Part shown: piece after piece, positions 8,208-19,038 of the stretch
Layout of the letters: each line of letters opens with the position of its first letter
How positions within the stretch are numbered: position 1 is the first letter of the stretch
Assembly (NCBI RefSeq): GCF_037076455.1
Contig: NZ_AP028679.1
Coordinates: 1,193,501-1,257,500, forward strand
DNA from: Desulfoferula mesophila
Lineage (GTDB): Bacteria; Desulfobacterota; Desulfarculia; Desulfarculales; Desulfarculaceae
Reading direction: 5' to 3'
Length of the DNA: 64,000 nt
Notes under the pieces: generated by a model
Database searches by the model: none
Told to the model about the DNA's origin: nothing
Seen by the model: only the letters and a program-made list of their open reading frames with translations
Program-made: the position numbers and the translations under genes

Positions 8208-8825
8208 CTAAACCTCTTTTACCAGGGCCAGACCCTTGGCCAGGGCCTGGCGGTTGGGAGGCATCTTGGAGGCGGGGAACATCTCGCCCAGGGCCTGTTC
8301 CACCTCGCGCGCGCCGATGGGCAAAAGCTCCAGGCCGCACAGGGCGCCCAAGAGCACCACGTTGGCCAGGATGTGGTTGCCCAGCTCCAGGGCGGCCGCC
8401 GTGGCGGGCAGCCAGTAGAGGCTGGCGCACAGGCCCTCCAGGGTGGCCCGCAGTTCCTCGGGCTCGGGGTAGCTCTGCTCTCCGGCCAGCACCCCCAGGG
8501 GGCGCAGGGGCCGGTCGTTGGTGAGCACCACCACGCCGGGGTGGCCGTAGACGCCCACCAGGCGCAGGACCTCCAAGGGCTCCAGGCTCACGATGGCCGT
8601 GGCCCGGTGGTCGGGCATCATGGGCCCCAGCACCGGCCCGGAACTTAGGCGCACCTGGCTCATCACCGAGCCGCCCCGCTGGCTCAGGCCGTAGGTCTCG
8701 CCCACGGTGACCTCGTAGCCGGCCGTGAGTAGGGCCCGGCCCAGCACCTGGCTGGCCAAGACGTTGCCCTGGCCGCCCACCCCGGTGACCACGATGTCCA
8801 GGGGATCATGGGTTAGCGCTTTCAT
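8208..8825 (-). CDS. iorB: Indolepyruvate:ferredoxin oxidoreductase beta subunit
   Basis: A 205-residue gamma-type domain of 2-oxoacid:ferredoxin oxidoreductases. It starts DIVVTGVGGQGNVLASQVLG and continues with VGETYGLSQRGGSV, the hallmark of IorB. With IorA it oxidatively decarboxylates aryl-2-oxoacids (indolepyruvate, phenylpyruvate) to acyl-CoA while reducing ferredoxin, or runs in reverse. I place the start at ATG 8825, which overlaps the iorA stop by 4 bases (ATGA); the longer open frame extending to 9008 reads iorA out of frame. Confidence 0.93.
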   Translation of the reverse strand: MKALTHDPLDIVVTGVGGQGNVLASQVLGRALLTAGYEVTVGETYGLSQRGGSVMSQVRLSSGPVLGPMMPDHRATAIVSLEPLEVLRLVGVYGHPGVVVLTNDRPLRPLGVLAGEQSYPEPEELRATLEGLCASLYWLPATAAALELGNHILANVVLLGALCGLELLPIGAREVEQALGEMFPASKMPPNRQALAKGLALVKEV

Positions 8826-10741
8826 GCCGCGGCCTCCTTGGGCCGGGCCTGGATGGCTCCGGCCGGGCAGATCTGGGCGCAGACTCCGCAGCCCACGCAC
8901 ACCACCTCGTCCACCACCGTCTTGCCCGTGGCCCGGTCGAACACCAGGCCGGGGCAGCGGAACACCCGGGTGCAGAAGCGGTTGCAGCCGCACTCCTCGC
9001 CCCGGCACAGCTCCGGGTCCACGCTGACTTGCCAGGGATGGCCGCCCCGCTTGTTTTGCACCAGGGCGCAGGCACGGCGGAAGATGAGCACCCTCAGGCC
9101 GCCGCCGCTGCGCAGGGCGTCGTAGAGCGCCTCCTGGGCGGCCTCCAGGTCATAGGGGTCCACCACGGAGTAAGGCAGGTCCAGCCCGGCGCAGACCTGC
9201 TCCACGTCCACCGCGGTGCCCGCCTGGCCCATGGCCGTGGCTCCGGTGCCGGGGTGAGGCTGGAAGCCGGTCATGGCCGTGGCCGAGTTGTCCAACACCA
9301 CCAGCACGTAGTCGCTGTTGTTCCAGCGGGCGTTGACCAGGGCGGGCAGGGCGGCGTGGAAAAAGGTGCTGTCGCCCACCACCGAGATCACCGGCTGGTC
9401 AAAGCCTTGGCCCCTGAGCTTGCCCAGGCCCGAGGCGATGCCCGGCCCCGAGCCCATGCAGTGCACCGCGTTGACCCGCTCGAAGCCGGTGGGCAACACC
9501 CCCATGGTGTAGCAGCCGATGTCCCCGGACACGATGCCCTGGCGGCCGTCGGCGGCCAGGACCTGCTTCATGGACCAGAAGCTGGCCCGGTGGGGGCAGC
9601 CGGGGCAGAAGCCCACCTGGCGCGGGGCCACCAGGGCCTGGGCCTCCCGGGCCCGGGCCAGGTAGTGTGGGTCCACCTCTTGCCAGGGCAGGCCCAGGAT
9701 GTCGGCCAGGGAAGCGGCCACCCGGCTGGGGTTCAGCTCGCCCAGGGGCGGCTTGTGCCCGGTGTCCTGGCCGTAGAAATCCTTGAACCCCAGGCGGCGC
9801 GCCTGCTGGGCGTAGAGGGCCTTGACGTTGCCCTCCAGGTGGGGGTCCACCTCCTCGGCGAAGAGGATCTTGTCGGCCCGCTCCAGGTGGGTGAGGATCA
9901 GCTCTTGGTCCAGGGGCCAGGTGGCTCCCAGGTGCAGGATGCCCACCCGCTCGGCCGCGCCCACCAGGCGGCGGGCCTCGTCGGCGTACAGGCGGCTGGA
10001 GCCGCTGGCGATCACCAAGAGCTGGGGGCGCGAGGGGCCGTCGTAATAATTGACCCCCGCGGCGCTCAATATCTCTCCGGCCCGGGCCAGCTTATCCAGC
10101 ATCACCTGGTGGCGGGGCACCACCGGGATGGTGAACCAGCGTTGGCTGGGGTCCCAGTAGGGCTTGGGCCGGGCCTCGGGCAGGGGGCCGGGAGTCACTC
10201 CGGCCCTGGTGTGACTCAGGCGGGCCAGGCCCCTGAGCACCACCAGGTTGCCGATCTGCTCGCTGAGCTCGAAGGCCAGCTTGGTCAGGCGCAGGCACTC
10301 GGCCGGGGTGGCCGGCTCCAAAAGGGGCAGGCAGGCCAGGCGGGCGATGAAGCGGGCGTCCTGCTCGTTGGTGGAGCTGACCCCCGAGGGGTCGTCGCAG
10401 GTGACCAGGACCAGACCGCCCCGGGAGCCGCTGATGGTCAGGTTGCAGATGAAGTCCTGGGCCACGTTGACCCCGTTCTGCTTCATGGAGGCCATGCCCC
10501 GGAGCCCGGCGTAGCTGGCCGCCGCGGCGCTCTCCAAGGCCACCTTTTCGTTGGTGGACCACTCCACGTAGATGCCCGCCGAGGCCGCCGAGTCGGCCAG
10601 GGTCTGCAAAATTTCGCTGCTGGGGTTACCCGGATAGGCGGCGGCCAGCGACACTCCGGCCTCCAAGGCCCCCCGGGCGATGGCCTCGTTGCCCTGCATG
10701 AGCACCTTTTGGCCGGGGGTCAGCTTGCTGATGTCAGCCAT
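8822..10741 (-). CDS. iorA: Indolepyruvate:ferredoxin oxidoreductase alpha subunit
   Basis: A 639-residue thiamine-diphosphate and iron-sulfur enzyme subunit. An N-terminal pyrimidine-binding domain (SLAAAYPGNPSSEIL, then EKVALESAAAASYAGLR) is followed by the TPP-binding domain (FCPGCPHRASF, GDIGCYTMG, GDSTFFHAALPALVNARWNN, LDNSATAMTGFQPHPG). A C-terminal ferredoxin-like domain follows: one cluster motif is irregular (C-x4-C-x-C-x3-C in CRGEECGCNRFC) and the second is canonical, CVGCGVCAQICP. It forms the catalytic unit with IorB, and its first 8 bases overlap the upstream FrhB-like gene. Role: amino-acid fermentation or assimilation through aryl-CoA. Confidence 0.95.
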   Translation of the reverse strand: MADISKLTPGQKVLMQGNEAIARGALEAGVSLAAAYPGNPSSEILQTLADSAASAGIYVEWSTNEKVALESAAAASYAGLRGMASMKQNGVNVAQDFICNLTISGSRGGLVLVTCDDPSGVSSTNEQDARFIARLACLPLLEPATPAECLRLTKLAFELSEQIGNLVVLRGLARLSHTRAGVTPGPLPEARPKPYWDPSQRWFTIPVVPRHQVMLDKLARAGEILSAAGVNYYDGPSRPQLLVIASGSSRLYADEARRLVGAAERVGILHLGATWPLDQELILTHLERADKILFAEEVDPHLEGNVKALYAQQARRLGFKDFYGQDTGHKPPLGELNPSRVAASLADILGLPWQEVDPHYLARAREAQALVAPRQVGFCPGCPHRASFWSMKQVLAADGRQGIVSGDIGCYTMGVLPTGFERVNAVHCMGSGPGIASGLGKLRGQGFDQPVISVVGDSTFFHAALPALVNARWNNSDYVLVVLDNSATAMTGFQPHPGTGATAMGQAGTAVDVEQVCAGLDLPYSVVDPYDLEAAQEALYDALRSGGGLRVLIFRRACALVQNKRGGHPWQVSVDPELCRGEECGCNRFCTRVFRCPGLVFDRATGKTVVDEVVCVGCGVCAQICPAGAIQARPKEAAA

Positions 10742-11783
10742 GGCGGCGCTCCTCGCTCCAGGCGGCGGCGCGCTTGCGCTTGGCCGCGGCCGCCTGGTTC
10801 AGATGCTCCAACGAGGCGGGGTCGGCCGGTTCCAGCTCCAATAGGCCCTTGCCGGCGGCCAACTCCAGGAGCCCGGTCCCGGCGTGGGTGCGGGACAGGA
10901 TGGTGTTCCAGCCCGGCTTGCCCTCGCAGGCCCCCACGCTCAGGTCCGCCCCCTCGCTGGTCAAGTCGCCGCACCCGGCGCAGCCGGGGTAGCTCAGGGC
11001 CCGCACCTCTTCCAGGGGGATTTCGTGATACCCCCCGTTGCCCCAGACCTGGAAGACGCCCGCCGGAGGGGGCGGGAAGTCGGCCCGGTCCAGGGGAGGG
11101 CGCACCCCGTGGCGGGCCAGCAGGTCGCGCAGGCCCCGCCAGGGCAGGTTCATGGTGCAGAAAAGGCCGATCACCAGATGGAGGCGTTCAGCGGCCGGGT
11201 TGGGCCGGGGCGCGGCCCGCATGGCCGAGATCGCCTGCACCTGGCAGGGCAGGCCCACCACGGCCAGGGGGTGGGAGGCGTCCTCTTCCAAGGCCTGGTT
11301 GAGGCGGCCCAAGGCCCCGCCACCCGCGTAGACCGAGCCCGCCGCGCCCAAAACCCCGACCCGTTCGCTGGCCCGGATGCCCTGGGGGGCGCCCCGGAGG
11401 CCGGCGGCGGTGACCACCGCCTCGCCTACCATGGACTGCTCCAGGGCCAGGGCCAGCAGTTCGCTGACCACCCCGCCGTATTGCGCCCGGCCCTCCAGGT
11501 CGGGGGCGGTGGCCCGGCCCTGCCAGGCCCCCAGCACCGGCCCCAGGGTCCCCTGGCTTTCGCCCAGGGCGTCCCGTTGGGCCACGGGGCAAAAACTGTA
11601 GCACCGGCCGCTGGTTAGCCCGCAGGCATCCGGAGCGGCCACCTGGCCGTCCATGAAAATGAGGTGGGGGCAAAGGCCCAGGCAGGCCCCGCAGGCCACG
11701 CACAGGCCGGGCTCGATGACCTCGGCCAGCAGGCGCCCGAGCGCGGCGGGCTGGGGGGCGGGTGAAGCGACGGGTCGGACCAT
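10734..11783 (-). CDS. FrhB/FdhB-like iron-sulfur flavoprotein (coenzyme F420 hydrogenase beta family)
   Basis: A 349-residue protein with an N-terminal ferredoxin cluster motif CVACGACLGLCPHLIF, a further GRCYSFCP, then the FrhB/FdhB flavin domain: AQYGGVVSELLALALE, GSVYAGGGALGRLNQAL, VVGLPCQVQAISAMR, GLFCTMNLPWRGLRDLL. A later Cys cluster reads YPGCAGCGDLTSEGADLSVG. The family passes electrons between FeS clusters, FAD and F420, ferredoxin or other carriers. Start ATG 11783 is preceded by GGGGAG at 7 bases; the longer frame to 11849 has no ribosome site. It is the first gene of the iorAB operon and overlaps iorA by 8 bases, so I infer it is a redox partner of IorAB. Confidence 0.85.
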   Translation of the reverse strand: MVRPVASPAPQPAALGRLLAEVIEPGLCVACGACLGLCPHLIFMDGQVAAPDACGLTSGRCYSFCPVAQRDALGESQGTLGPVLGAWQGRATAPDLEGRAQYGGVVSELLALALEQSMVGEAVVTAAGLRGAPQGIRASERVGVLGAAGSVYAGGGALGRLNQALEEDASHPLAVVGLPCQVQAISAMRAAPRPNPAAERLHLVIGLFCTMNLPWRGLRDLLARHGVRPPLDRADFPPPPAGVFQVWGNGGYHEIPLEEVRALSYPGCAGCGDLTSEGADLSVGACEGKPGWNTILSRTHAGTGLLELAAGKGLLELEPADPASLEHLNQAAAAKRKRAAAWSEERRHG

Positions 11784-12086: not shown

Positions 12087-12353
12087 CTTTGACCTAGCCG
12101 AACCATTCCCGGCTTAAGGGCCGCGGCTGGGCCGCGCGACCCAGGGCTGGGTTGTCCCTTTTTGAGGGGGTTTCCCGGCGCCGTCCTCCGGCGCGGGGGA
12201 GCTTGCTTCGATTAGTGGACCTGATCCAATCTGGCCGGCTTTTCCGGGCCACCGCGATGCGCGGACAGATTTGACGTGGTCCACGGCCTCGGGCGCACCC
12301 CGGGGTCCGGGGTGGCGGCTATTGCGGTTCGTCACCCTGGGGGAGGAAAACGC
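12087..12353 (+). other. Leader of the rimP-nusA-infB operon
   Basis: No gene is evident between the tRNA and rimP. The stretch is GC-rich, with possible hairpins (CCCAGGGCTGGG near 12150, then CCCTTTTT; GCGCCG / CGGCGC near 12179-12194). I see no convincing promoter; the operon may be read from the tRNA promoter or from an unrecognised one. Confidence 0.4.
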
Positions 12354-12830
12354 TTGGAGCCCACGGCACCGGCCAGCGACATGGAAAAGCGCCTCGGCGA
12401 ATTGTTGGAGCCGGTGGTGCGTTCCGAGGGCCTGGTGCTGGTGGAGCTTTCCTGGCGGCGCGAGCGCGGCGGCCAGGTGCTGCGCCTTTGCGTGGATCGG
12501 CCCCAGGGAGGGGTGAGCCTGATCGAGTGCACCGAGCTTAGCCGCCAGGTGAGCGACCTGTTGGACGTGGAGGAACCCATCGAGGTTCCCTACAGCCTGG
12601 AGGTCAGTTCGCCGGGGCTCAACCGCAAGCTCAAGGACCCCCGCGAGTTCGACCTGTTCGCGGGAAGGCCCGCCCGCCTGGTGGTCAGCCCCCCGGAGGG
12701 CGGTACTCAGGTCGTCCAGGGGGTGCTCAAGGGCACCATGGGCCAGGACGTGTTGATCGAGGTGAAGGGCAAGGTAAAGGCCCTGCCCGTGGCCCAGGTG
12801 GCCAAGGCCAAGTTGGACCTTGATTTTTAG
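12354..12830 (+). CDS. rimP: Ribosome maturation factor RimP
   Basis: A 158-residue protein needed for maturation of the 30S subunit. The N-terminal alpha/beta domain (LVLVELSWRRERGGQVLRLCVDRP) and the signature YSLEVSSPGLNRKLKDPREFDLFAGRP are clear, followed by a C-terminal SH3-like domain. I favour a TTG start at 12354 because GGGAGGA lies seven bases upstream; ATG 12381 (MEKRLGELL) is the alternative and matches the usual N-terminus equally well. It heads the conserved nusA-infB operon. Confidence 0.9.
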   Translation: MEPTAPASDMEKRLGELLEPVVRSEGLVLVELSWRRERGGQVLRLCVDRPQGGVSLIECTELSRQVSDLLDVEEPIEVPYSLEVSSPGLNRKLKDPREFDLFAGRPARLVVSPPEGGTQVVQGVLKGTMGQDVLIEVKGKVKALPVAQVAKAKLDLDF

Positions 12831-12878
12831 GGGGGCGCCGAGCGGCGCCGCCCATGCTCTTAGGTTGGGGAGAACCCA

Positions 12879-14396
12879 ATGAGTGAACTTAAACGGATGA
12901 TCGACCAGGTTTCGCGGGAAAAAGGCCTGGACCGCGAAATTCTCATCAACACCTTGGAAGAAGCCATGCGTTCGGCCGCGCGCCGCAAGCTGGGCTCCAA
13001 GGTGGAGGTGGACGTCGCCTACAACGACGACACCGGCGAGGTGGAGGTGTTCGAGTTCAAGGAAGTGGTTAACGAGGTGGACGACCCCGAGACCCAGATT
13101 TCCTTGGAGCACGGCCATCGCCTGGACCCCGACTGCGAGGTGGGCGACGAGCTGGGTGTGAAGGTGGACACCGCCGACTTCGGGCGCATCGCCGCCCAGA
13201 GCGCCAAGCAGGTCATCATCCAGCGCATGAAGGACGCCGAGCGCGATATCATCTTCGAGGACTTCAAGGACCGCAAGAGCGAGATCATCAACGGCATCGT
13301 GCAGCGCTTCGACAAGGGATCGATCATCGTGAACCTGGGCCGCACCGAGGCGGTGGTGCCTCCCCGGGAGCAGGTGCCCCGCGAGGGCTACCGCCCCGGC
13401 GACCGGGTACGGGCCTACGTGCTGGACGTCAAGCGCATCTCCCGCGGTCCCCAGATCGTCTTGAGCCGCACCCATCCGGGCTTCATCGAGGCCCTGTTCG
13501 AGTTGGAGGTGCCCGAGATCGCCGAGGGCATCGTGACCATCGAGGGCGTGGCCCGCGAGGCGGGCAGCCGCACCAAGCTGGGCGTGGCCAGCAACGACCG
13601 CGACGTGGACCCGGTGGGAGCCTGCGTGGGCATGAAGGGCAGCCGGGTGCAAGCGGTGGTGCAAGAGCTTAGGGGCGAGAAGATCGACATCATCGCCTGG
13701 GACCAGGACCCGGCCCGCTACGTGGTCAACGCCCTGGCCCCGGCCGAGATCAGCCGGGTGGTGGTGGACGAGGCCAACCAGACCATGGAGGTCATCGTGG
13801 CCGACGAGATGCTCAGCCTGGCCATCGGCCGCCGCGGGCAAAACGTGCGCCTGGCCTCCAAGCTCACCGGCTGGAAGATCGACGTGAAGAGCGAGACCCG
13901 CTACGGCGAGTCCCTGCGCGACGGCTATCGTTCGCTGCTGGACGTGGTGGGCGTCTCCGACGTGGGGGCCGACACCCTCTACCAGGCGGGCTACGGCTCG
14001 GCCGAGGCCCTGGCCGAGGCCGACCCCGAGGAACTGGCCGCCCTGCCGGACATCACCCCCGAGCGGGCCGCCGAACTCATCGCCGACGCCCAGCGTTATC
14101 TGCAGGAAGCCCCTCTGCGGGCCGCCGCCTCCGCCGCGGCTCCCACGGAGGAGACCGGCGCCTTGGCCGCGGTGCGCGAGGCCTGGAACGAGCTGGCCGG
14201 GCAGGCCAGCGGCGAAGACCAGCCCCTGGTGGAGGCCGAGACGGCTCTCGAAGAGGAGGCCGAGACGGCTCTCGAAGAGGAGGCCGAGACGGCTCTCGAA
14301 GAGGAGGCCGAGGCGGCCCCCGAAGAGGAGCCCGTAGCGGCTCCCGAAGAGGAGCCCGAGCCCGACCAGGCCCCAGAGTTGGAACGCAAAGAATAG
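12879..14396 (+). CDS. nusA: Transcription termination/antitermination protein NusA
   Basis: A 505-residue RNA polymerase-associated factor. Order of domains: N-terminal RNAP-binding domain (about 1-125), S1 domain, KH1 and KH2 (DPVGACVGMKGSRVQAVVQEL; LSLAIGRRGQNVRLASKLTGWKIDV). A C-terminal helix-hairpin-helix-like segment follows (LYQAGYGSAEALAEADPEELAALP). The last about 60 residues are an acidic, low-complexity tail made of eight-residue repeats (EAETALEE) that the family does not require. It controls pausing, rho-dependent termination and antitermination. Confidence 0.96.
   Translation: MSELKRMIDQVSREKGLDREILINTLEEAMRSAARRKLGSKVEVDVAYNDDTGEVEVFEFKEVVNEVDDPETQISLEHGHRLDPDCEVGDELGVKVDTADFGRIAAQSAKQVIIQRMKDAERDIIFEDFKDRKSEIINGIVQRFDKGSIIVNLGRTEAVVPPREQVPREGYRPGDRVRAYVLDVKRISRGPQIVLSRTHPGFIEALFELEVPEIAEGIVTIEGVAREAGSRTKLGVASNDRDVDPVGACVGMKGSRVQAVVQELRGEKIDIIAWDQDPARYVVNALAPAEISRVVVDEANQTMEVIVADEMLSLAIGRRGQNVRLASKLTGWKIDVKSETRYGESLRDGYRSLLDVVGVSDVGADTLYQAGYGSAEALAEADPEELAALPDITPERAAELIADAQRYLQEAPLRAAASAAAPTEETGALAAVREAWNELAGQASGEDQPLVEAETALEEEAETALEEEAETALEEEAEAAPEEEPVAAPEEEPEPDQAPELERKE
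14232..14351 (+). repeat. 24-bp tandem repeat inside nusA
   Basis: Three identical 24-base units begin at 14232, 14256 and 14280 (GAGGCCGAGACGG then CTCTCGAAGAG). Two diverged units follow at 14304 and 14328. Each encodes one EAETALEE-type octapeptide. In-frame, so copy-number change would only lengthen or shorten the acidic tail. Confidence 0.9.
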
Positions 14397-14513
14397 GCCG
14401 CCCGAGAGGACAGGCCGACTCGCCCCCAATGGGGGGCTGCATAGGCCGCCAAGGGGCGGCCCCGGAAGCCGGAAATGAGCGGCTCCGCCCAGGAGAGACC
14501 GAGGAGATAATTG

Positions 14514-17387
14514 ATGGCCAAAATGCGGGTATACGAGCTGGCCAAAGAGCTCAAGATCGATAACCGCGATTTGATTCGACAGCTTATCGAAATGGGCCTG
14601 GACGTGCGCAACCACATGAGCGCCCTCTCGCCGGAGGACGCCCAGATGGTGCGCGACAAGTTGAAGGCCGAGCGCAACGAAGTGGTGGAGGAAAAACGGG
14701 TCACCACCCAGGTTATCCGCCGCCGCCGCAAAAAGGTGGATACCGCCGAGGAAGCCGCCGCCCCGGAGGCGGAGGAGCTTTCCCCGGAGGAGACGGCCGA
14801 GCTCGAAGAGCCCGAGACTCTCCCCACCGACGAAGCCCCGGCCCAGCCGGAGCCCGCCGCCGAAGTCCAGGTGTCCGCCGAGTCCGAACCCGCGCCCACG
14901 GCCGAGGCCGCCGCTCCCGCGGAGCCGGAGCCCGCTCCCGGGCCCAAGGCCGAGGCTCGGATAGAACCCGAACCGGAGCCCGAGCCGGAGCCTGAGCCTG
15001 AGCCAAAACCGGAGCCCGAGCCGGAACCAGAACCGGAGCCCGCGCCCGCGCCCAAGCCGGAACCTAAACCCACGCCGGAGCCGGAGCCTGCCCCCGCGCC
15101 CCAAAAGGAGCCCACGTCAGTGGCGGAAGCCAAACCCGTGCCCGAGCCGGAACCCGAGCCCGAGCCCAAGCCCCAGAAGGCGGCGGCGGAGCCCAAGGAG
15201 ACGCCGGAGCGTCCCAAGCCTCAAAAGGCCAAACCGGTCCGCCCCAAGCGCGCCGTGGAGGACGCCCCGGCCCGTATCATCAGCAAGCCCACCACGCCGG
15301 TGCCCCCCATGGGGGATCGTTGGCGCGAAGACAGCCGGCCCGCCCCTCCGGCGGCCCGCAGGGGGCCACGCCCCGTACCCCCCAGCGCGCCGCCCGTGGG
15401 CGAAGTGCCCCCGCCGGACAAGTCCGACGGGCGCCCCAGCCGCCGCCGCAAGAAGGGCAAGAAGGGCACCCAGGTTCCCAGCGACGACGTGCTGATGCGC
15501 AAGGCGGGCAGCAAGCGCAAGGAGATTCTGGACCGCGACGCCCTCTACGGCGGGCGCCCCTCCCGGGGACGCCGCCGGGGTGGCGGCACGGTCAAGAAAT
15601 CGCTCAAGACCGAGCTGACCACGCCCAAGGCCATCAAGCGCCGCGTCAAGGTCACCGAAGCCATCACCGTGGGCGATCTGGCCAAGCGCATGGGCGTCAA
15701 GGCCGCCGAGGTGGTGGGACGCATGATGAAGATGGGCATGATGGTGACCCTCAACCAGTCCCTGGACACCGACGACGCCGGTATCGTGGCCTCCGAGTTC
15801 GGTTTCGAGATCGAACGGGTGGGCTTCGAGGAAGAAGGGCTGCTGGCCGCTCATGAGGACAGCCCCGAAGAGATGGAGACCCGTCCCCCGGTGGTGACTA
15901 TCATGGGCCACGTGGACCACGGCAAGACCTCGCTACTCGACAGCATCCGTCACGCCGACGTGGTAAGCGGCGAGGCCGGCGGCATCACCCAGCACATCGG
16001 CGCCTACGACGTGCACCTGCCCAATGGCGGCCAGGTGGTGTTCCTGGACACCCCGGGCCACGAGGCCTTCACCCAGATGCGGGCCCGCGGCTCCCAGGTC
16101 ACCGACGTGGTGGTTCTGGTGGTGGCGGCCGACGACGGCATCATGGAGCAGACCAAGGAGGCCATCAGCCACAGCAAGGCGGCCGGGGTGCCCATCGTGG
16201 TGGCCATCAACAAGATCGACAAGCCCGGAGCCGACCCCGAGCGGGTGCGCCGGGAGCTTTCCGAGCGCGGCCTGGTTTCCGAGAGCTGGGGTGGCGACAC
16301 CATCACCGTGGAGGTCTCGGCCAAGACCGGCCAGGGCGTCGAAGAGCTGCTGGAGATGCTCCAGTTGCAGTCCGAGGTGTTGGAGCTGACCGCCAACCCC
16401 AACAAGCCGGCTCGCGGCCACGTGCTGGAGGCGCGCCTGGACAAGGGGCGCGGCCCGGTGGGCACCGTGCTGGTGCAGGAGGGCACTCTCAAGGCGGGCG
16501 ACAGCTTCGTCTGCGGCACCTTCGCGGGCAAGGTTCGCTCCATGCTCGACGACCGCGGCAAGCCGGTGGATTTGGCCGGCCCCTCCATCCCGGTGGAGGT
16601 GCAGGGCTTCGGCGGCGTGCCCGAGGCGGGAGACGAGTTCTCCGTGGTCGATAGCGAGAAGGTGGCGCGGCAAATCGCCGATCACCGGGCCATGAAGAAG
16701 CGCGAAGCCGAGCTGTCGGCCAAGACCAAGACCTCCCTCGAGGGCTTCTTCGAGAAGATGGCCGAGGGCGAGGTGCAGGAGCTCAAGCTGGTGGTCAAGG
16801 CCGACGTGCAAGGTTCGGTGGAGGCCCTGGTGGAGGCCCTGGGCAAGCTGGGCAACGACCAGGTCAAGGTCAACGTGATTCACGCGGCCACCGGTGCCAT
16901 CAACGAGTCGGACGTGATGCTGGCCAGCACCAGCGACGCCATCGTCATCGGCTTCAACGTGCGCCCCATGGGCAAGGTGAGCGAGACCGCCGAGGCCGAG
17001 CGGGTGGACATCCGCACCTACGAGGTGATCTACCAGGTCCTGGACGAGGTGACCGCCGCCCTCACCGGCATGCTGGCCCCCGAGTTCAAGGAGGAGGTTA
17101 TCGGCCGGGTGGAGGTGCGCGACACCTTCGGCGTGCCCAAGGTGGGCACCGTGGCCGGCAGCTACGTCACCGAGGGCCACGTGGAGCGCGGGGCGCATGT
17201 GCGCCTGCTGCGCGAAGGCGTGGTCATCGCCAACACCAAGGTGTCCTCGCTGAGACGCTTCAAGGACGACGTCAAGGAAGTGGCCCAGGGCTTCGAGTGC
17301 GGCGTGGGCCTGGAGAACTACAACGACATCAAGGTGGGCGACGAGATCGAGTTCTACGTGATCCACGAGGTGGCCGCGGAGCTGTAG
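14514..17387 (+). CDS. infB: Translation initiation factor IF-2
   Basis: A 957-residue GTPase that delivers fMet-tRNA to the 30S subunit. The N-terminal IF2N domain ([21 protein letters not shown]) is followed by a long linker of roughly 300 residues rich in Pro-Glu/Pro-Lys repeats (about 14950-15190), and a second IF2N-like helix ([20 protein letters not shown]). The G domain has GHVDHGKTS (G1), DTPGHEAF (G3) and NKID (G4). Domains II to IV run to the C-terminus. Start ATG 14514 follows GAGGAG at seven bases; TTG 14511 is a less likely alternative. Confidence 0.97.
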
Positions 17388-17720
17388 GTGGTCGTGGGCG
17401 CCATGACCATAACCCTGCACCTGGGCCAGGGCGGCAGCCTCAAGGCCAAGCGCAAGGTGGTGCGCAGCCTAACCGATAGGGTGCGCGCCCGCTTCAACGC
17501 GGCCGCCGCCGAGGTCGGGGCCCAGGATCTGTGGCAGCGCATCGAACTGGGTTTCACGGTGTGCGGCAACGAGAGCGCCCACGTGGACAACCAGCTCGAC
17601 TCCATACGCCGCTTCGTGGAACGCATGGCCTTGGCCGAAGTCACCGACGTGCGCCGGGAGCTTATCAACCTCAAGGAGATGACGTGGGCACCCGCCGCAC
17701 AAAACGACTGGGCAATCTGA
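17388..17720 (+). CDS. YlxP-like protein (DUF503)
   Basis: A 110-residue protein matching the DUF503/YlxP family: ITLHLGQGGSLKAKRKVVRSL then ARFNAAAAEVG, and a conserved second half with DNQLDSIRRFVER. YlxP is a small RNA- or ribosome-associated protein found beside infB and rbfA in many bacteria; its role is unsettled. It starts with GTG immediately after the infB stop codon and its 3' end overlaps rbfA by 37 bases, so translation is coupled. Confidence 0.85.
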   Translation: MVVGAMTITLHLGQGGSLKAKRKVVRSLTDRVRARFNAAAAEVGAQDLWQRIELGFTVCGNESAHVDNQLDSIRRFVERMALAEVTDVRRELINLKEMTWAPAAQNDWAI

Positions 17721-18076
17721 TCCTGGCCGAGCTGGGCGCCCTGATGGCCCGCCGGGTGAAGGACCCCCGGGTGGCGGCGGTGAACCTGACCGCGGTGGAC
17801 GTGGCCCCGGACCTGAGCCAGGCCAAGGTCTTTTTCAGCGTGTTGGACCCCGCCAAGAGCGGCGAGGCCCTGGCCGGGCTCAACGCGGCCGCCGGGTTTT
17901 TGCGCCGGGAGCTGGCCGCCACCCTGCGGCTCAAGACCATGCCCCGCCTGGTGCCGGTGTACGACGACTCGCTCATCAAGGGGGCCCATCTGGACCAGGT
18001 GATACGCCAAGCCCGGGCCCAGGACGAAGCCAACGCCCAGGCCCGGGACGAGGACGAGCCCGAGGAGGCGACCTAG
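17684..18076 (+). CDS. rbfA: 30S ribosome-binding factor RbfA
   Basis: A 130-residue KH-type protein of 16S rRNA maturation. Recognisable blocks are RRTKRLGNLILAELGALM, DPRVAAVNLTAVDVAPDLSQAKVFF and LRLKTMPRLVPVYDDSL. The GTG start at 17684 lies five bases after AAGGAG, within the end of the ylxP gene; the longer open frame to 17531 is out-of-frame ylxP. The last about 20 residues are an acidic extension. Confidence 0.9.
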   Translation: MGTRRTKRLGNLILAELGALMARRVKDPRVAAVNLTAVDVAPDLSQAKVFFSVLDPAKSGEALAGLNAAAGFLRRELAATLRLKTMPRLVPVYDDSLIKGAHLDQVIRQARAQDEANAQARDEDEPEEAT

Positions 18077-19038
18077 TGAAACAGGTGGCGACCATCATCG
18101 CCCAGGCCGAGCGGGTGTGGCTGGTTTCCCACGTTTTGCCCGACGGCGACGCCCTGGGCTCCTCGCTGGGGCTCATGCACCTGCTCAAGGCCCAAGGCAA
18201 GCAGGCGCGGGTGTTCAGCGCCGGGCCCATACCCGAGGAATACCTGTTTCTGCCGGGCATGGACCAGGTGAGCGACGTGTTGCCCCAGATAGGGGACCAG
18301 GACTTGGCGGTGATGCTCGACTGCCACCAGCCCCAGCGCACCGGGCCGGTGAGCGAGGCCTTTTTGGCCAAGCTGCCCCAGGTGGCCATCATCGACCACC
18401 ATCAGGGGGCGGTGGATTTCGGGCAGGCGGCCTGGGTGGACCCGGGCTTTGCCGCCACCAGCGAGATGGTTACCCTCTTGGCCCAGGCCGAGGGCTGGGA
18501 CATCACCCCCGAGGCGGCAACCTGCCTGTTCACGGGGGTGCAGACCGACACCGGCTCCTTCCGCTACGCCAACACCACCCCCCGGGTGTTTCGGGTGGCG
18601 GCGGATCTGGCCCAGGCCGGAGCCCAGGTGTGGCCCATCAGCCAGGAGGTTTATGCCACGCGTCCCAAGCGCCTGAGCTTGCTGGGGCGCATCATGGACA
18701 ACCTGGAGCTCAGCCAGGAGGGGCGTCTGGCCTTGAGCCAGATCACCCTGGACGACCTGGAAAAGGTGGGCGCGGGACCGGCCGATTTGGAACAGGCGGT
18801 GGAGACGCTTCGGCTGATCCCCGGCGTGGAGGTCTCGGCCCTGTTCCGCCAGACCCCCAAGGGCGCGGTCAAGGTTTCCATGCGCTCGCGGGGCAAGGTG
18901 GACGTGAGCCGGGTGGCCATCGAGCTGGGCGGCGGAGGGCACAAGAACGCCGCCGGAGTGACCCTGGAGGGCAATTTGGCCGGGGTGCGCCGGGACATCG
19001 CCACCCGCCTGCGCCTGGGGCTGGAGGAGCTGTCATGA
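18076..19038 (+). CDS. nrnA: DHH/DHHA1 phosphoesterase, NrnA-like (nanoRNase/pAp phosphatase)
   Basis: A 320-residue DHH-family phosphoesterase that degrades short oligoribonucleotides and 3'-phosphoadenosine 5'-phosphate in homologues. Metal-binding motifs are visible: SHVLPDGDALGSSLGL, VMLDCHQP and the DHH motif in IIDHHQGAVDFG. A C-terminal DHHA1 domain ends with ELGGGGHKNAAGVTLEG. The GTG start overlaps the rbfA stop (TAGTG). It commonly sits between rbfA and truB. Confidence 0.92.
   Translation: MKQVATIIAQAERVWLVSHVLPDGDALGSSLGLMHLLKAQGKQARVFSAGPIPEEYLFLPGMDQVSDVLPQIGDQDLAVMLDCHQPQRTGPVSEAFLAKLPQVAIIDHHQGAVDFGQAAWVDPGFAATSEMVTLLAQAEGWDITPEAATCLFTGVQTDTGSFRYANTTPRVFRVAADLAQAGAQVWPISQEVYATRPKRLSLLGRIMDNLELSQEGRLALSQITLDDLEKVGAGPADLEQAVETLRLIPGVEVSALFRQTPKGAVKVSMRSRGKVDVSRVAIELGGGGHKNAAGVTLEGNLAGVRRDIATRLRLGLEELS

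Follow-up and report, generated by a model that had tools for sequence, protein, structure and literature searches.

A conserved FrhB-like flavoprotein gene beside iorAB in Desulfobacterota: probable third subunit of a 2-oxoacid oxidoreductase

The frhB-like-iorAB operon of Desulfoferula mesophila

The window analysed here, 64,000 nucleotides of the Desulfoferula mesophila contig NZ_AP028679.1, carries an frhB-like gene, iorA, iorB and a DJ-1 gene in a single minus-strand run (Table 1). The open reading frames agree exactly with the gene order, the two overlaps (8 and 4 bases) and the 1-base gap between iorB and the DJ-1 gene that the preliminary description had reported. Upstream of the frhB-like ATG at 11783 lies a ribosome-site-like sequence, GGGGAGG.

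Table 1. Features of the operon in the window
Feature	Coordinates	Strand	Basis
FrhB-like iron-sulfur flavoprotein, 349 aa	10734..11783	-	ORF, Pfam, predicted fold
IorA-like alpha subunit, 639 aa; TPP domains and C-terminal ferredoxin domain	8822..10741	-	
IorB-like beta subunit, 205 aa	8208..8825	-	
DJ-1/PfpI protein, 193 aa	7625..8206	-	
frhB-like stop / iorA start overlap, 8 bases, ATGGCTGA	10734..10741	-	
iorA stop / iorB start overlap, 4 bases, ATGA	8822..8825	-	
IorA five-cysteine first-cluster motif, residues C579 to P597	8951..9007	-	coordinates confirmed by translation

Pfam assigned POR_N, TPP_enzyme_C and the ferredoxin domain Fer4 to IorA, POR to IorB and DJ-1_PfpI to the last gene, the first two proteins together having the domain set of an IorAB pair. 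Their best NCBIfam matches were IOR_alpha (TIGR03336; 546.4 bits, cut-off 650.9) and IOR_beta (TIGR03334; 153.2 bits, cut-off 205.8), and both subunits therefore score under the curated equivalog cut-offs. A fold search with the IorA model returned general thiamine-enzyme matches only (TM on the query length at most 0.58 among the 50 matches listed) and was not used.

The FrhB-like protein matched FrhB_FdhB_N (PF04422, 2.7e-10) and FrhB_FdhB_C (PF04432, 1.3e-29), with family scores of 40.7 and 103.5 bits against gathering scores of 22 and 23.3. On the TIGR03289 frhB equivalog it reached 106.9 of the 331.5 bits required. A ferredoxin-like domain occupies the N-terminus (C28, C31, C34, C38, C54, C61, C65), and the FrhB domain has one predicted [4Fe-4S] site (C180, C209, C268, C271) and the FAD loop Q-x-G-G at residues 101-104. 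We took the cluster and loop positions from the literature and compared them across 70 sequences: the four cysteines and Q101 were invariant and G103/G104 were kept in at least 90%. The cluster cysteines and the FAD loop, like the Pfam scores, place the protein in the FrhB/FdhB family. Its AlphaFold2 model (mean pLDDT 95.0) best matched 8riu_B (TM 0.86, Z 42.3, rmsd 2.2, 331 aligned residues, model residues 13-349); the zeta/FwdI fold was matched over the full length of the model, and the 7-hydroxymethyl chlorophyll a reductase HCAR (PDB 5DQR) over both domains (Z 29.9).

The FrhB-like gene is linked to iorAB across the phylum

Loci were picked by FrhB score (listed matches of at least 200 bits, loci from further searches and the window), which placed this FrhB clade in 75 of 395 phylum genomes, at 91 loci and in 25 family codes. 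Eighty-eight of the 91 loci left room to judge the neighbours, and at 85 of these 88 evaluable loci iorAB adjoins the FrhB gene, in 83 with the gene order of the window. None of 16 ordinary FrhB loci lies beside iorAB; three of them (L152, L159, L161) have 57-65-residue IorA matches that cover the ferredoxin part only and were not counted as IorA. A 183.5-bit FrhB match, L149, was kept separate, and no IorA is found there. Note that the FrhB and cofD surveys scored no more than five candidates in each genome and may have missed additional copies of either gene. Being kept at 85 of 88 loci across the phylum, the adjacency of FrhB and IorAB is not due to chance. The preliminary description had made its reading depend on conservation of this linkage in relatives, and the linkage extends far beyond the species.

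The same picture came from an IorA-first draw of 59 genomes, in which 29 IorA matches to P0002 reached at least 650 bits, 24 of them with a linked FrhB. Lower-scoring IorA genes were FrhB-linked in none of the 50 examined among the 73 matches listed, four of the 50 having less than 1.2 kb of upstream sequence. FrhB and IorA have been inherited together: their distances are correlated (r 0.78, with none of 2000 permutations as high) and, in the 13 genomes with at least two modules, the two proteins of a module point to the same foreign locus as the nearest one for 21 of the 27 modules.

At three loci (L094, L110, L118) FrhB stands without IorAB, two of them having the same clade beside GlcD, and the HCAR match illustrates that an FrhB fold can reduce other substrates. 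These observations would suit an independent enzyme acting in the pathway, for example a hydroxyacid-dehydrogenase partner or a small-molecule reductase like HCAR, that is merely co-transcribed with iorAB. We regard this as unlikely, given how often the gene adjoins iorAB when compared with GlcD, whose open frames occur at only 8 loci (a ninth is cut by a contig end), and given that the IorA cluster motif described below tracks FrhB linkage.

Unbiased clustering of the neighbours, with antisense and overlapping frames ignored, revealed no other gene common to most loci. The DJ-1 gene was considered as a fourth conserved component and rejected because it lies directly behind iorB only in six genomes, all of the window's genus; in L026, from another genus of the family, a DJ-1 relative is about 1.4 kb away. 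Thus the DJ-1 gene does follow iorB by one base in the window, as had been described, but it falls outside the conserved unit and is probably accessory or incidental.

Looking beyond the phylum, a contig search with a single window protein found three close relatives only, a plasmid search with the second-copy FrhB gave 17 records, all under 60% identity (30.6% for the top-ranked), and a phage search gave no match. In the open-licence literature we found no paper pairing FrhB with IorAB or with indolepyruvate ferredoxin oxidoreductase.

A five-cysteine motif marks the FrhB-linked IorA

The irregular first-cluster motif that had been noticed in IorA is real. In the window it reads C579-x4-C584-x-C586-x3-C590-x5-C596-P, C596 being a fifth cysteine. 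All 84 FrhB-linked IorA proteins carry the five-cysteine motif, while among the unlinked ones 47 are without it and 8 have it. This tracking of FrhB linkage is in line with the earlier suggestion that the odd motif is part of the adaptation. Since eight five-cysteine IorA proteins have no adjoining FrhB, the FrhB subunit may not always be needed, or may work in trans from another locus; one of the genomes concerned, 67% complete, yielded no FrhB of the clade anywhere. An IorA fragment at a contig end, L198, has the motif and an unreadable upstream region, and was tallied separately as the 51st. If a dedicated flavin subunit is indeed present, the five-cysteine IorA would be a sequence signature for recognising such enzymes.

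A second copy and the GlcD-GlcF loci

The same genome has a second FrhB-IorAB copy, flanked on one side by a 2-hydroxyacid-dehydrogenase-like pair and on the other by a lactate-racemase-like gene. The parts of this locus (TRAP transporter, AMP-binding CoA ligase, GlcD, GlcF, IorA, IorB) make it look like a hydroxyacid catabolic operon. The window's own locus is without transporter, CoA ligase and GlcDF, and by eye no aromatic-catabolism neighbours were seen around it.

This last observation, together with the reversibility of 2-oxoacid oxidoreductases, would allow the trio to run reductively, the flavoprotein supplying IorAB with electrons to carboxylate arylacetyl-CoA, and the resulting arylpyruvate going into amino-acid synthesis. 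We consider this quite improbable. From the redox potentials, a flavin linked to NAD(P)H would be ill suited to drive the carboxylation, and the paralogous locus sits in an apparent hydroxyacid catabolic operon. Moreover, the comparable IorA3B3 of Desulfococcus multivorans is formed specifically on phenylpyruvate (PMC5109826).

GlcD-GlcF lies directly before frhB-iorAB in six loci (L015, L068, L069, L075, L077, L078), giving the order GlcD-GlcF-FrhB-IorA-IorB, and in L015, L068 and L069 a LarA-like gene adjoins iorB. The six loci are consistent with electrons passing to the quinone pool, via GlcF/CCG-type proteins or a flavoprotein, instead of NAD(P)+, with FrhB as an adaptor. We allow this route a limited chance, as no GlcD-GlcF pair was found directly before frhB in the other surveyed loci, including the window's; many of the loci are on short contigs.

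The GlcD-GlcF-FrhB-IorA-IorB order with the LarA-like gene, and the FrhB-GlcD loci without IorAB, also fit a more speculative and distinctly unlikely arrangement, in which FrhB would be a shared flavin hub where electrons from GlcDF and IorAB are confurcated onto a carrier of intermediate potential, for instance NAD+. Here GlcDF would give two weakly reducing electrons (hydroxyacid/oxoacid) and IorAB two strongly reducing ones, a larger complex taking the 2-hydroxyacid fully to acyl-CoA. We know of no electron confurcation in the FrhB protein family, so that, if true, this would be a new confurcating site there.

F420 is very unlikely to be the acceptor

The preliminary description had listed F420 among the possible electron exits, to be checked through its biosynthesis genes. 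In favour of this acceptor, the two nearest solved structures are of subunits that reduce F420 and serve as the electron exit of enzymes which are otherwise ferredoxin-coupled. The check on the biosynthesis genes went against it. With methanogens as positive controls, neither cofD (0/20) nor cofE (0/20) was found in the 20 genomes of the family, 12 of which are at least 90% complete. Furthermore, the 16 genomes in which cofD exceeds the cut-off include none of the 75 FrhB carriers, although taken by itself this exclusion has little statistical weight (Fisher p 0.05). Six carriers gave partial cofD-like matches of 19-34 bits against a cut-off of 257; Escherichia coli, also under the cut-off, gives signal in this search too. 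As the cofD and cofE genes were not found, we rejected F420 as the acceptor of the trio and consider it very unlikely, with a minimal chance of being right; uptake of F420 from outside is conceivable in principle.

A turn contacting F420 was proposed in 2013, and the underlying F420 density was withdrawn in 2014. At this turn the window protein has PPPP, as do 54 of 93 sequences, but a lysine is retained in 18 of 93; for this reason, and with the density withdrawn, the turn was discarded as a clean discriminator.

A probable three-subunit enzyme

Because FrhB-iorAB recurs across many sulfate-reducer relatives, the trio probably makes up an enzyme of three parts, not described before, that has an electron outlet of its own. 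As first proposed, three subunits with a flavin as the electron exit remain the best reading, and other enzymes provide a structural precedent for it. Specifically, FrhB, IorA and IorB are likely to form a 2-oxoacid (probably arylpyruvate) oxidoreductase whose exit is not F420. That the three proteins form a complex is inferred from linkage and co-inheritance, and the route of the electrons, the direction and the acceptor are inferred as well.

In the proposed heterotrimer, IorAB would turn the 2-oxoacid into acyl-CoA by decarboxylation at thiamine diphosphate. Electrons would pass to the clusters of the IorA C-terminal ferredoxin domain, with its first site remodelled by five cysteines, and the FrhB-like protein would act as the third, electron-exit subunit, its FAD collecting single electrons and passing them on as a hydride to a soluble acceptor of two electrons. 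Our first guess for this acceptor, tentative as it is, is NAD(P)+, which we hold to be the most likely one and rank before the hydroxyacid-dehydrogenase/quinone route.

Schemes of arylpyruvate oxidation by IorAB usually show free ferredoxin as the acceptor. If true, the three-subunit reading would alter the energy balance of oxidising aromatic amino acids and aryl-lactates, perhaps in one fifth of the phylum, and FrhB-type subunits, known as F420 modules, would have been recruited in bacteria without F420.

Comparison with known systems

The window pair are recognisable relatives of IorAB (indolepyruvate/arylpyruvate:ferredoxin oxidoreductase), with the same domains in the same order; the pair differs in scoring below the NCBIfam cut-offs, in its five-cysteine first-cluster site and in the third, frhB-like gene. 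HCAR is likewise an FrhB-fold flavoprotein and is not known to use F420. Its substrate is a tetrapyrrole and, unlike what is proposed for the window FrhB, it is not known to have a 2-oxoacid oxidoreductase partner.

The second locus resembles the phenyllactate/phenylpyruvate module of Desulfococcus multivorans (IorA3B3, Dmul_C24850-70, DctMQP and FadD4, a phenylacetate/phenylpyruvate module; PMC5109826) in its kinds of parts. In the section and passages on that module FrhB is unmentioned, and the main text never uses the term "F420".

The closest structural counterparts are two F420-reductase subunits of Candidatus Ethanoperedens thermophilum, zeta, which couples CO dehydrogenase to F420 (PDB 8RIU), and FwdI of formylmethanofuran dehydrogenase (PDB 8RJA) (PMC11493965). 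In our case the probable partner is a thiamine-dependent 2-oxoacid oxidoreductase and the host is bacterial; the acceptor would differ as well, since no F420 genes were found. What the systems share is a two-domain subunit, with a ferredoxin-like N-terminus (C-x6-C-x3-CP in both zeta and the window protein) and an FrhB domain with one [4Fe-4S] cluster and FAD, added to an enzyme that is otherwise coupled to ferredoxin.

The FrhB-IorAB gene run

The FrhB-like gene opens a run of four genes. As the preliminary description had stated, it overlaps iorA by 8 bases (ATGGCTGA), iorA overlaps iorB by 4 bases (ATGA), and a 1-base gap separates iorB from a DJ-1/PfpI gene. The top models for IorA and IorB were indolepyruvate ferredoxin oxidoreductase, both with scores under the curated NCBIfam cut-offs. 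The nearest NCBIfam models of the DJ-1/PfpI protein were the regulators FtrA and GbdR, with scores far under their cut-offs; its gene occupies the place 1 base after iorB only in six genomes of the window's genus. Upstream of the run, on the other strand, there are a tRNA-Gly gene and a set of genes that by eye look like rimP-nusA-infB. Note that the end of NusA (about 14240-14330) carries a repeated acidic stretch and InfB long E-P-rich runs, and that a nusA-type ORF is found on the opposite strand upstream in ten other loci of the FrhB-IorAB module.

Features of the FrhB-IorAB region of the window
Feature	Position	Strand	Remark
FrhB-like	11783-10734	-	first of four-gene run
IorA	10741-8822	-	second of run
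IorB	8825-8208	-	third of run
DJ-1/PfpI protein	8206-7625	-	fourth of run
rimP-nusA-infB and further genes	12276-19038	+	read by eye

The linkage is conserved across the phylum

The linkage noticed in the window is kept in its relatives. A close FrhB-like gene was present in 17/20 genomes of the window's family, Desulfarculaceae, the window's own included (58-83% identity in the others), and IorA was adjacent by coordinates in 16 of these 17; in the 17th, G010, the contig stops about 125 bases past the FrhB-like gene. Moreover, 7/8 genomes of the window's genus carry a second FrhB-like gene (37-44% identical), with its own IorA adjacent in 7/7.

We then ran profile A1, built from eight FrhB-like sequences, on 395 genomes of the phylum, with up to five candidates scored in each genome. 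The scores were bimodal (≥200 bits vs ≤152 bits), with a single match between, at 183.5 bits. The 91 loci of the upper group came from 75 genomes and 25 family codes; the tandem pair of G211 was counted once, as was a gene in G378 that is split into two pieces. IorA lies directly downstream in 83/91 of these loci; in two (L132, L143) the FrhB gene follows IorB, three are cut by a contig end, and three (L094, L110, L118) have no IorA. Thus, iorAB stands beside FrhB in 85/88 evaluable loci. None of 16 loci from the lower group (L150-L165) contained an IorA gene; three short matches were confined to the ferredoxin part of IorA.

In L094 (4301-8067) and L110 (6962-9458), from two genera of one family code, a same-clade FrhB stands directly 5' of GlcD, followed in L094 by GlcF as well, without IorAB. 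In L118 (310-1979) an unrelated ORF follows the clade FrhB, and a five-cysteine iorA of the same genome lies on another contig (L169). L082 (6454-9181) has a tandem pair of clade FrhB-like genes ahead of a single iorAB. The window's own genome encodes, at 1.665 Mb, a third FrhB-family protein (L003, 1357-2571), 35% identical to the window's and adjoining an ORF that by eye resembles a TRAP-type binding protein; the 13-kb locus L020 showed no match to IorAB.

An independent search starting from IorA, which covered 59 genomes, separated matches of ≥650 bits (n = 29) from those of ≤554 bits (73 among the matches listed). An FrhB-like gene adjoins 24/29 of the former and 0/50 of the lower-group IorA examined, four of which had less than 1.2 kb of upstream sequence.

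A five-cysteine IorA marks the linked type

The irregular first-cluster motif pointed out in the preliminary description is real and marks the FrhB-linked type; in the window's IorA it reads in full C579-x4-C584-x-C586-x3-C590-x5-C596-P. We compared 148 distinct IorA frames, a non-random set mostly fetched on account of FrhB, and called linked those with an FrhB match within 4.5 kb on the same strand. Setting aside 4/148 frames cut at the C-terminus, 84 were linked with the motif and 0 linked without it; 8 had the motif unlinked and 1 had it with too short a flank, while 47 unlinked and 4 short-flanked frames lacked it. The spacing before the last cysteine is x4, not x5, in 2/93 motif-bearing IorA. 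The remaining frames mostly have three or four cysteines (C-x2-C-x2-C-x3..5-C or C-x5-C-x5-C), and 8/55 of them fitted no pattern tried. Seven of the eight unlinked motif carriers (L021-L023, L169, L170, L172, L195, L196) have a clade FrhB elsewhere in the genome; none was found in the eighth genome, G060, which is 67% complete.

FrhB and IorA show co-inheritance: their distance matrices from 81 linked pairs correlated with r 0.78, a value to which shared genome descent contributes and which 0/2000 permutations reached. In the 13 genomes with at least two modules, both proteins had the same nearest foreign locus in 21/27 modules.

F420 is rejected as the acceptor

F420, one of the electron exits offered by the preliminary description, was rejected: cofD and cofE were each found in 0/20 family genomes (12 of them ≥90% complete and ≤5% contaminated), and cofD exceeded the cut-off in 0/75 FrhB carriers (Fisher p 0.05). 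The same searches pass the cut-off in three archaeal controls, and cofD does so in 16/395 genomes of the phylum, including 8/53 holding only lower-group FrhB matches. Partial cofD matches (19-34 bits vs a cut-off of 257) in six carriers (G020, G038, G059, G075, G110, G324) were taken as remote relatives. At the FrhB turn IGKGK, placed near F420 by a 2013 model according to PMC3591093, the window's protein reads FPPPPAG. PPPP occurs there in 54/93 sequences; since 18/93 keep a lysine, this difference is a supporting detail only.

The paralogous locus and the substrate

The window's own locus gave no hint of the substrate. The second module of this genome, L015, is transcribed from a thiolase-like fragment through an AMP-binding CoA ligase, three genes of a TRAP transporter, GlcD, GlcF, FrhB, IorA and IorB to a LarA-like gene. 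Pfam was applied to the ligase, to GlcD and GlcF, and to the LarA-like relative in L132, to which the L015 gene is 43% identical and owes its name; the TRAP and thiolase names were given by eye. L068 and L069 match the stretch from ligase to LarA-like; GlcD and GlcF were undetected in L070. As described in PMC5109826, Desulfococcus multivorans grows on phenyllactate, forms IorA3B3 specifically with phenylpyruvate, and has a phenylacetate/phenylpyruvate cluster with a TRAP transporter, a CoA ligase and three genes for conversion of phenyllactate to phenylpyruvate. Because of this cluster and the gene context of L015, aryl-lactate and arylpyruvate would be its likeliest substrates.

A putative three-subunit oxidoreductase

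Our best reading is that the FrhB-like protein, IorA and IorB form a three-subunit arylpyruvate oxidoreductase; that they associate physically, which way the reaction runs and what accepts the electrons are inferences. The FrhB-like subunit would take the place of free ferredoxin as electron outlet, and its FAD would hand electrons on to a soluble carrier that accepts two of them. This carrier would be one other than F420, with NAD(P)+ the likeliest candidate. In the boldest reading, FrhB may merge the electrons of GlcDF with those of IorAB.

The AlphaFold2 model of the FrhB-like protein (70 sequences; mean pLDDT 95.0, pTM 0.92) best matched 8riu_B (TM 0.86, Z 42.3, rmsd 2.2 over 331 residues, model 13-349), also the first match by sequence (5.9e-35), followed among solved folds by 8rja_E (TM 0.80, Z 37.2, rmsd 2.6, 323 residues). 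The leading rows spanning both domains were these two and the Fsr and HCAR chains. Seven N-terminal cysteines and the four FrhB cluster cysteines are invariant across the 70 sequences (FrhB residue roles from PMC3591093 and PMC3930138), and no eighth N-terminal cluster ligand was identified beside the seven.

We found no description in the open-licence papers searched of an FrhB-type subunit paired with IorAB, in many families of a phylum, without F420. As an exit subunit, the FrhB type is already known on other enzymes. According to PMC11493965, 8riu_B and 8rja_E are F420-reductase subunits whose ferredoxin domain carries two clusters, and such subunits dock on CO dehydrogenase or formylmethanofuran dehydrogenase, enabling these enzymes to reduce F420. 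The window's protein shares with 8riu_B the N-terminal spacing C-x6-C-x3-CP.
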